Shown: positions 5,049-16,842 of the stretch, in pieces
Layout of the letters: the number at the start of each line of letters is the position of its first letter
How positions within the stretch are numbered: position 1 is the stretch's first letter
Origin: Chloroflexota bacterium
GTDB taxonomy: Bacteria; Chloroflexota; UBA6077; SHYK01
NCBI GenBank assembly: GCA_035652535.1
Contig: DASRDP010000154.1
Coordinates: 1-38,639 of the forward strand
Direction: 5' to 3'
Length of the DNA: 38,639 nucleotides
Made by a program: the position numbers and the translations under genes
Notes under the pieces: generated by a model
What the model saw: only the letters and a program-made list of their open reading frames with translations
Told to the model about the DNA's origin: nothing
Database searches by the model: none

Positions 5049-5376
5049 TTGGCCTCCTCCACCTCATTGGTTCGGCGCCGAATGGCGCGCCCGGACCCAC
5101 GCTCCGCGGAGCAGTACCGCGAGGGCGTCCGTGCGATGGCGAGATCCACGCTCGACGCGGGATCGGCGTGCACTACATTCGCGGAAACGCGATGCGTCGG
5201 GGTGCGCTGCCGCCCTATTGTAGCGCCGAGCCGACGGTCCGCTCAGGTCGCGCGGCCGTCGCGCTCGCCCTTCGCGAAATTATTGATAAAAACGCTATCA
5301 ACTCTCCTGCATGTAATCTGATATGCTTATTACCATAACGTCATGTGGCCGCCGCGCGCGGCCACGGAGTGGAACT
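5049..5376. other. Divergent intergenic region between the hydrolase and dnaK
   Basis: These 328 bases hold no gene. The last 60 (about 5278-5337) are strikingly AT-rich against a GC-rich background and contain an inverted repeat (5283-5301) plus -10-like TAATCT (5314-5319) and TATGCT (5322-5327), without a clear -35. This is the likely dnaK control region. No CIRCE element (TTAGCACTC inverted repeat) is present. Confidence 0.5.
5283..5301 (+). promoter_or_regulatory. HAIR-like inverted repeat upstream of dnaK (possible HspR-type operator)
   Basis: TTGATA and TATCAA form a perfect 6-base inverted repeat with a 7-base spacer. The HspR operator HAIR is CTTGAGT-N7-ACTCAAG, so the TTGA-N11-TCAA core and spacing are identical, with the inner two bases and the outermost base differing. 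HspR is the MerR-family repressor of dnaK in actinobacteria. The position, 76 bases before the dnaK start in the AT-rich control region, fits. No hspR gene is in the window. Confidence 0.45.
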
Positions 5377-7260
5377 ATGGCAAAAGTTATCGGCATCGAT
5401 CTCGGGACGACAAACTCGGCCGTCGCCGTGCTGGAAGGCGGCGAGCCGTCCGTCCTCGAAAGCTCGGAGGGTGAGCGCATCACCCCGTCCATGGTGGCGA
5501 TCAACCCCAAAACTGGAGAGCGCCTGACCGGGCGACTCGCCAAGCGACAGGCCGTCACCAACCCGGAGAACACGGTGTTCTCCATCAAGCGGTTCATGGG
5601 CCGCAAATTCGATGACCCCATCGTTCAAGAGGCTGTGAAGCGTGTGCCGTACCGGGTGACGCGCGCGCCCAATGGCGACATTCGTGTCCTGATGGGCGGA
5701 AAGGAGTACAGCCCTCCCGAGATCTCGGCCATGATCCTGCAGAAGCTGAAGGCGGACGCCGAGGCCAAGCTGGGCGAGAGGATCTCGCAGGCCGTTATCA
5801 CCGTCCCCGCCTATTTCAACGATGCGCAACGCCAGGCGACGAAGGACGCAGGTCAGATCGCCGGGCTCGAGGTGCTCCGCATCGTCAACGAGCCAACCGC
5901 TGCGTCGTTAGCGTACGGCCTGGACAAGCAGGTGGACGAAGTGATCGCCGTCTACGACCTTGGCGGCGGCACGTTTGACGTATCGATCCTGCGCGTTGGC
6001 GAGGGAGTCATCGAGGTTCTGGCCACCAACGGGGACACGTTCCTGGGCGGCGACGACTTCGACCGGGCCGTGATCGACTGGATCATCGCCGAGTTCAAGC
6101 GCGAGGAAGGGGTCGATCTCAGCCAGGATCGCATGGCGCTCCAGCGCGTGCGTGAGGCGGCCGAGCGGGCCAAAGTGGAGCTGTCATCATCCCAGACGAC
6201 CGAGATCAACCTCCCCTTTATCTCGGCAACCGCATCCGGACCCAAGCATCTGCAACTCTCGCTCACCCGGGCCAAGCTGGAGCAACTCACCGAAGGGTTG
6301 ATCGAGCGAACGCGCGAGCCGGTCGAGCGCGCGCTGGCCGACGCAAAGCTTCGTCCGGGCGAGATCGACCAGGTCGTGCTGGTCGGCGGCCAGACCCGAA
6401 TGCCGGCTGTTCAAGACTTTGTGCGGAAGCTCTTCGGCGGGAAGGAGCCCCACAAGGGCGTCAATCCCGATGAAGTCGTGGCAGTTGGTGCGGCGATCCA
6501 GGCCGGTGTGCTGCAGGGTGAAGTGAAGAACGTGCTGCTCCTCGACGTCACGCCCCTCTCCCTTGGCGTAGAGACGAAGGGCGGCGTGATGACGACGCTG
6601 ATCCCGCGCAATACGACGATTCCAACCAGCAGGTCGGAGACGTTCTCGACCGCGGAGGACAACCAGTCGCAGGTGGATATCCACGTCGTCCAGGGTGAGC
6701 GCCCCATGGCGCGCGAGAACAAGAGCCTCGGTCGGTTCATCCTGGACGGGATTCTCCCCGCCCCGCGCGGCGTGCCGCAGATCGAGGTGACGTTCGACAT
6801 CGACGCCAACGGGATCCTGAACGTCTCCGCCCGCGACAAGGGGACGGGGCGGCAGCAGAAGATCGTGATCCAGCCATCCAGCGGGCTTACGGAGATGGAG
6901 ATCCAGCGCATGATGCGTGACGCGCAGGAGCATGCCGCGGAGGACGCTCGGCGGCGTGAGGAGATCGAGCTGAAGAACCACGCGGATAGCCAGGCGTACG
7001 CGGCGGAGCGGATGCTGCGGGAGAGCGGCGACCGCGTCCCCAGCGACGCCCGGCTCGACATCGAGAACCAGGTCCAGGCCGTTCGCCAGGCAATCGAACA
7101 GAACGACGTGGCCCGCGTGCGCTCGGCGTCCGAGGCGCTCCAGGCGGCCCTCCAACGAGCCGGATCCGCCGTATACGGCACGCAGGCTGGAAAGACGAGC
7201 GAGGGCGAGTCGAGCGCTGGGGACGGGACTGTCGAGGGGGAGTTCCGGGAAGTCGCCTGA
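5377..7260 (+). CDS. dnaK: Molecular chaperone DnaK (Hsp70)
   Basis: This is a 627-residue Hsp70, an ATP-driven cytoplasmic chaperone for unfolded proteins. The nucleotide-binding domain carries GIDLGTTNS (about 5-13), GGGTFDVSI (about 196) and [12 protein letters not shown] (about 334), followed by the [14 protein letters not shown] linker, substrate-binding beta domain and helical lid. The frame opens at 5323, but [10 protein letters not shown] at 5377 is the family start and has GGAG seven bases before it. The tail ends EGEFREVA instead of the usual EEVD/EEVK-like end. The gene stands alone: no grpE, dnaJ or hspR follows, and a strong terminator lies after it. It may be one of several dnaK copies. 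A HAIR-like repeat upstream suggests heat-shock control. Confidence 0.97.
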
Positions 7261-16014: not shown

Positions 16015-16233
16015 TCATCAGCGGTCACCCAAGCCACCGATTCTTCGCCTGCGGGCTCAGCATAACGGTTTCCGACCGCGACTTTTGGCCTGCTCGTCCA
16101 GGCCGGCACGTTGGGGGATCGGTATGGCGGGGCGCCGTGCGCCACGTGCCACCGTCAAAGAGGAGTTTGTAGGCCTGAAGAAGAACGGTGAATACCTGGC
16201 CGGGCGAAACCTGAACCGATCACGGAGGACCCA

Positions 16234-16842
16234 ATGGCGAAGCTATCAGACTTTGTTCCGGGCGCGAAGTTCCCTGACCTCGCACTTCCGGACCATACGG
16301 GTGCGGTCGTTCGCCTATCGGAGCTGACCGCTGGTCGAGACCCTCTGGCGGTCATGTTTTTCCGTGGATGGTACTGACCAAAATGTGTGGTGCAGTTGCG
16401 CCTCCTCACCGAATACCAGAAGGAGCTCGCCGTATCCTACTGCAAGGTCGTCGCGATCAGCACTGACCCGTGGCGAGAAAATGCTGCGCTCCGAATTGGG
16501 CTGGGTGCGACATTTCCCTTTCTTTCCGACGCTGATCGGACCGCCCAACAGCAGATGGGCCTGCTCGAAGTGACCTCCCGGCGAAGAGTCGATCTGCCCC
16601 GCGATTACATCTTGTATCCCGACCTCACGATTTACCGGGTCTACAACGGGTACTACTACGTCGGGCGAATGACGGTTGACGATCTGCGGCGTGACTTCCG
16701 CGCGATCAGCGCGCAAATCCGCAAGGATTGGGACCCGACCGCGCTCGACGAGCAAGAGATGGTGTCTGCCTACAAAGAGTTCGCCGGGTACGATCCATTC
16801 GGCCCACACCCGAGCGACCCGCCCGGGCGACCTGTCGAATAG
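16234..16842 (+). CDS. Redoxin/peroxiredoxin-like protein, probable selenoprotein (Sec48 encoded by TGA)
   Basis: Reading from ATG 16234 (GGAGG six bases upstream) gives an AhpC/TSA-type thioredoxin-fold N-terminus (VPGAKFPDLALPDHTG, then LAVMFFRGWY). TGA at 16375-16377 follows, after which the same frame continues PKCVVQLRLLTEYQ to TAG at 16842. In homologous redoxins the residue after the FYRGWW/FFRGWY block is the redox Cys of CPxC; here TGA stands exactly there, giving U48-P-K-C51. Family-like sequence persists to the end (STDPW, FPFLSDAD, Prx-like DYILYPD), so 202 residues are conserved in coding form. A SECIS-like hairpin starts 11 bases after the TGA. Likely role: thiol/selenol peroxidase or disulfide reductase in the cytoplasm. 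Alternatives are a Cys-to-stop mutation or a base error. Ordinary gene callers would split or truncate it. Confidence 0.82.
16378..16409 (+). promoter_or_regulatory. SECIS-like stem-loop immediately 3' of the in-frame TGA
   Basis: GGUGC (16389-16393) pairs with GCGCC (16398-16402), one G-U included, closing the loop AGUU (16394-16397). The stem begins 11 bases and the loop 16 bases after the UGA. GUG (16385-16387) can pair with CAC (16407-16409) below an internal loop. The bacterial SECIS needs a short hairpin with G in the first two loop positions at about this distance; the E. coli fdhF element (GGUUGC stem, AGGUCU loop, 11-base spacing) is very similar. It lies inside coding sequence, as bacterial SECIS elements do. 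Confidence 0.7.

Follow-up and report, generated by a model that had tools for sequence, protein, structure and literature searches.

Selenoproteins in which a peroxiredoxin-like (Prx-like) protein carries selenocysteine (Sec, U) in a UxxC motif go back in the literature to the Sargasso Sea survey of 2005 (PMC1088965), and the UxxC Prx-like thiol:disulfide oxidoreductase was listed in 2026 as predicted with high confidence (PMC13188914, Table 1). In this kind of protein (PF00578, UxxC or UxxU; PMC1088965; PMC2398784, as 'Prx-like 1'; PMC9312934; PMC13188914), Sec is the N-terminal residue of UxxC, and not that of the TxxU motif of Prx, and the SECIS element lies just 3' of the UGA. The same table holds a Redoxin family selenoprotein (PF08534) that is also of the UxxC type by description. 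True Prxs, in turn, represent a cxxC form in which the N-terminal Cys has been lost and an Arg occupies the cis-Pro position (PMC2757866). Chloroflexota are not mentioned in the selenoproteome reviews searched.

The locus described here lies in a Chloroflexota contig of 38,639 nucleotides, the whole of which is referred to as the window. It has in common with the Prx-like UxxC selenoproteins the AhpC-TSA domain, the N-terminal placement of Sec and a SECIS-like element immediately 3' of the UGA. Judged from sequence, it is very probably a functional selenoprotein gene in which UGA 48 is read as Sec, encoding a thioredoxin-fold Prx-like oxidoreductase.

Reading frame and selenocysteine machinery

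The frame opens with the ATG at 16234, closes with the TAG at 16840-16842, and upon translation contains a sole internal stop, the TGA at codon 48 (Table 1). The first-pass annotation had described an intact frame with a good ribosome site, interrupted once by TGA and family-like from there to a normal TAG, and this description was confirmed. The Shine-Dalgarno-like sequence makes a good ribosome-binding site, and the 202 codons match Pfam AhpC-TSA (PF00578) over residues 9-133, across the TGA, with an E-value of 4.3e-15 and 56.2 bits against a cut-off of 26 bits; a weaker match of the translated protein is that to Redoxin (PF08534, E 5.2e-10). The gene model is corrected accordingly, as standard gene calling would yield a shortened or divided gene. 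Upstream lies a gene for a molybdopterin-dehydrogenase subunit and downstream one for a penicillin-binding protein. This neighbourhood offers no hint, and no operon is proposed because the neighbours of relatives, where annotated, differ from these.

Table 1. Features of the predicted selenoprotein gene (window coordinates)
Feature	Position	Strand	Basis
Predicted selenoprotein redoxin gene, 202 residues + TAG, Sec = residue 48	16234..16842	+	Translation with TGA = U, AhpC-TSA domain, homologues
Shine-Dalgarno-like GGAGGA, ending 4 nt 5' of ATG	16224..16229	+	Read directly from sequence
Predicted Sec codon TGA (U48 of U-P-K-C)	16375..16377	+	Eight other distinct homologues share TGA; the rest of the close ones have TGC/TGT
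C51 codon TGT, presumed resolving Cys	16384..16386	+	Aligns with ResA CxxC C-terminal Cys and with true Prx peroxidatic Cys
Pro122, cis-Pro position of thioredoxin, invariant (18-row alignment); Arg in true Prx	16597..16599	+	Alignments; PMC2757866
SECIS-like hairpin GGUGC-AGUU-GCGCC, apical loop 16394-16397	16389..16402	+	bSECIS limits and conservation

Two of the checks suggested on the first pass, a search for the Sec machinery in the same genome and an alignment asking whether Cys or Sec occupies column 48 in homologues, came out in favour of Sec. The host assembly (168 contigs, of which the window is C154; 98% complete) encodes all four components: selA (E 1.9e-167), selB (E 6.4e-101), selD (E 1.5e-113, interrupted by a single TGA within a GUxxK motif) and a tRNA-Sec (score 69.5 bits, cut-off 47; identified by ARAGORN as SeC with anticodon TCA). 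The selD gene (L134, G000:C130:8956-9882) is a selenoprotein gene itself, with the sequence SGUASK and a strong hairpin 3' of its TGA; SelD with Sec (UxxK) is a known selenoprotein form (PMC13188914).

Conservation of codon 48 and of the downstream hairpin

A phylum-wide search of 251 Chloroflexota genomes with the query protein alone identified TGA-containing relatives with 71% (G006) and 63% (G047) identity, as well as a paralogue in the same genome (contig C155:24710-25255; L048, L133) that is 63% identical, reads U-G-K-C and carries an identical hairpin. Relatives not found by a single-protein scan of genome contigs were recovered by an alignment-based scan, although one of its patterns contained the CPK motif, which tilts the resulting set towards Cys. 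When all loci were aligned to the query, column 48 was found to be TGA in nine distinct genes from eight genomes (six U48/C51, two U48/E51 and one U48/D51). The other close homologues, about 90 in number, all have a Cys codon there (TGC or TGT), combined with Asp or Glu at column 51. Nine rows with C48/C51 belong to distant relatives; among close members, C51 occurs exclusively together with Sec, in the UxxC group of Chloroflexota. A tree built from 96 proteins requires about five changes to account for the Sec rows, at least two of them forced by well-supported branches. selA is present in eight of the eight genomes with TGA forms, and all four selA-negative homologue genomes have the Cys form.

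The codons around the TGA point in the same direction. Where computable, dN/dS ranges between 0.07 and 0.21 both 5' and 3' of the TGA, values that are approximate because dS is near saturation, and nucleotide changes among relatives fall mostly at third positions. Judged from these substitutions, purifying selection acts on the codons on both sides of the TGA. The TGA is not attributable to chance because three relatives, with protein identities of 71, 63 and 63%, share the codon and dN/dS is low.

A candidate SECIS element follows the Sec codon. The bSECIS model describes a loop of 3-9 nt, a stem of 4-16 bp, a G in the first two loop positions, a spacing of 16-37 nt and a minimum free energy of -7.5 kcal/mol or lower (PMC13188914). 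The hairpin of the query lies within these limits, with a loop of 4 nt that has G at its second position and starts 16 nt 3' of the UGA, a spacing at the limit of the model; the energy passes only with flanking bases, being -6.5 kcal/mol for the bare 14 nt and -7.7 in the downstream context. The hairpin is base-identical, synonymous sites included, in the four closest members, the other three of which have 63-71% protein identity to the query. All four agree base for base in codons 53-56, as compared with 14 of 79 degenerate codons with an invariant amino acid overall (hypergeometric chance about 7e-4, the stretch having been picked post hoc). One position further out, the other three members form a U-A, an A-U and an A-U pair, and the query is unpaired. 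The case for the hairpin relies on conservation and not on energy, because shuffled versions of the surrounding 61 nt are as stable as the sequence itself (z -0.04). By hairpin energy alone, TGA and Cys homologues are told apart only weakly, and about a third of the latter also form some hairpin of -5 kcal/mol or lower. The remaining TGA members have other candidate hairpins, with the exception of L037, in which a strict scan yielded none; an Rfam search of the region gave just a sub-threshold match on the opposite strand. In the proposed mechanism, UGA 48 would be decoded as Sec through SelB and tRNA-Sec, directed by the hairpin immediately downstream.

Other explanations of the interrupted frame have to be weighed against these data. 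A nonsense mutation of an ancestral TGC or TGT, in a pseudogene or by sequencing error, would look alike in isolation, as a lone in-frame stop in an otherwise intact gene; the TGA, however, is shared by the paralogue, by two same-family relatives and by other distinct genomes, dN/dS is low 3' of it and the sel machinery is present, which makes this explanation highly improbable. It was rejected for practical purposes, given the recurrence of the TGA in separate assemblies. Similarly improbable is that the locus consists of two genes, encoding 47 and 151 residues, the second from GTG 16387, as a standard caller would split it. Although an open reading frame at 16387-16842 does figure in the mechanical list, the redoxin domain covers both pieces, the split would cut off active-site residues and the Cys homologues are single proteins; the split was rejected. 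Even less credit is due to a genome-wide reassignment of TGA, for instance to Trp or Gly, which the open frame would allow and nothing further favours. TGA terminates ordinary genes in the window, such as those for Hsp70 (5323-7260) and ETF, and therefore no general reassignment applies in this genome; this contradiction led to its rejection. In addition, column 48 of the homologues is Cys, neither Trp nor Gly, and a tRNA-Sec with a TCA anticodon is present. Sec decoding at codon 48 is accordingly a prediction that is very well supported.

Active-site position of U48

The first-pass annotation had placed U48 at the peroxidatic Cys position of AhpC/TSA-like redoxins, within a CPxC motif. Its inference of a UxxC selenoprotein is upheld by the sel genes, the tRNA-Sec, the Cys/Sec alignment, the retention of the TGA in relatives and the SECIS-like hairpin; the peroxidatic position is not supported. 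Against PDB peroxiredoxins, the peroxidatic Cys (of TPGC) aligns with C51, and U48 with the Thr. When the family profile is compared with ResA, column 48 falls on the N-terminal Cys of CxxC and Pro122 on the cis-Pro, a position at which BcpB has Arg. As for the motif, close Cys homologues have CPKD or CPKE, with C51 found next to Sec only. Among 20 distant TGA redoxins from the phylum, 16 are UxxC at column 48 and four are Sec-Prxs that read TPGU, SPGU or TSGU, with Sec at column 51. Seleno-peroxiredoxins with these motifs occur in the phylum at L150, L159, L160 and L161.

A predicted model of the protein (pLDDT 79, pTM 0.73, built from 18 sequences) has U48 immediately preceding the first helix of the active site, and its fold resembles those of both Prx and ResA. 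The column 48/51 and Pro122 alignments, taken together with the model, therefore suggest a thioredoxin-like active site on a Prx/ResA-type scaffold. With ResA/TlpA the query has in common the CxxC alignment of columns 48 and 51, the cis-Pro at P122 and the fold (TMt about 0.78-0.83), but it is about 20% identical, has no apparent N-terminal signal or anchor when the sequence is read by eye, and most of its relatives have Asp or Glu where ResA/TlpA have the second Cys of CxxC.

It could be argued that the same selenoprotein is physiologically a true peroxidase, a seleno-peroxiredoxin (TxxU, PF00578), given that it has the Pfam AhpC-TSA domain of that group, which occurs in the same phylum, that its best PDB sequence match is the Mycobacterium tuberculosis BcpB peroxiredoxin and Prxs are among the best fold matches, and that a selenolate could reduce peroxides without a canonical Prx site. 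However, Sec in seleno-peroxiredoxins sits at column 51, the canonical peroxidatic column, after Thr, whereas the query has it at 48. The TxxC of true Prxs is not found, U48/C48 being invariant and column 51 being Cys, Asp or Glu (Asp or Glu in most close homologues), nor is their active-site Arg, which is replaced by the invariant Pro122, as in thioredoxins and ResA (PMC2757866). A peroxidase of this kind is thus regarded as unlikely, albeit far less so than the explanations that deny Sec. With a PF00578 domain and UxxC at the thioredoxin CxxC position, the product is most plausibly interpreted as a Prx-like thiol:disulfide oxidoreductase of the UxxC type, whose activity PMC13188914 gives as predicted rather than verified. 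The attacking selenolate would be U48, located where the active-site helix begins; C51 would resolve it into a selenenylsulfide, and the enzyme would presumably be re-reduced by thioredoxin or a low-molecular-weight-thiol system. The product is probably cytosolic. The gene, the Sec column, the sel machinery, the hairpin and the fold family follow from the sequence data, and from these we infer Sec insertion itself, a cycle through a selenenylsulfide, the location in the cell and the substrate, be it disulfide or peroxide.

Subfamily, Sec relatives and redoxin-rich genomes

None of the NCBIfam selenoprotein models reaches its cut-off for the query subfamily. Among curated models related to selenoproteins, most of the members tested come closest to the SelL-related redox protein NF040769, which gives 20-44 bits for members and 25.3 for the query, against a cut-off of 120. 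As compared by descriptions, the subfamily is set apart from the known Prx-like UxxC kind by its Cys homologues, whose CPKD/CPKE offers one redox residue; what is new would be the subfamily, its Chloroflexota clade and its Sec relatives with UxxE or UxxD. We tentatively propose, with more doubt than confidence, an uncatalogued subfamily in which Sec occupies a lone redox Cys site (CPKD/CPKE) in several separate lineages, comprising resolver-less UxxE/UxxD forms and the Chloroflexota UxxC group. If this is true, Sec and the resolving Cys would constitute a coupled innovation, C51 being seen in the subfamily only with Sec. The family also offers natural matched pairs, in which one site is Sec or Cys and a resolving Cys is present or absent; with these, one could test what an enzyme gains from Sec and whether Sec requires a resolving Cys beside it.

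Neither UxxE nor UxxD appears as a term in the 2026 selenoprotein review (PMC13188914). TGA homologues reading UPKE or UPKD, without a nearby resolving Cys, occur at L031 (G036), L037 (G225) and L089 (a Thermoleophilia MAG). On Rhizobium plasmids (NZ_CP149878.1, NZ_CP148092.1 and NZ_CP088009.1), homologues extend across 98% of the query at places where the PLSDB table has no feature. Many Chloroflexota genomes hold several TGA redoxins (e.g. G010, G051, G060, G109, G133 and G149, family f24), indicating a Sec-rich redoxin set in the phylum. In the g36 genomes of f24, four to six redoxin matches are found in each, several of them clustered on one contig (G010:C11, G060:C76), an arrangement suggestive of selenoprotein redoxins in tandem.
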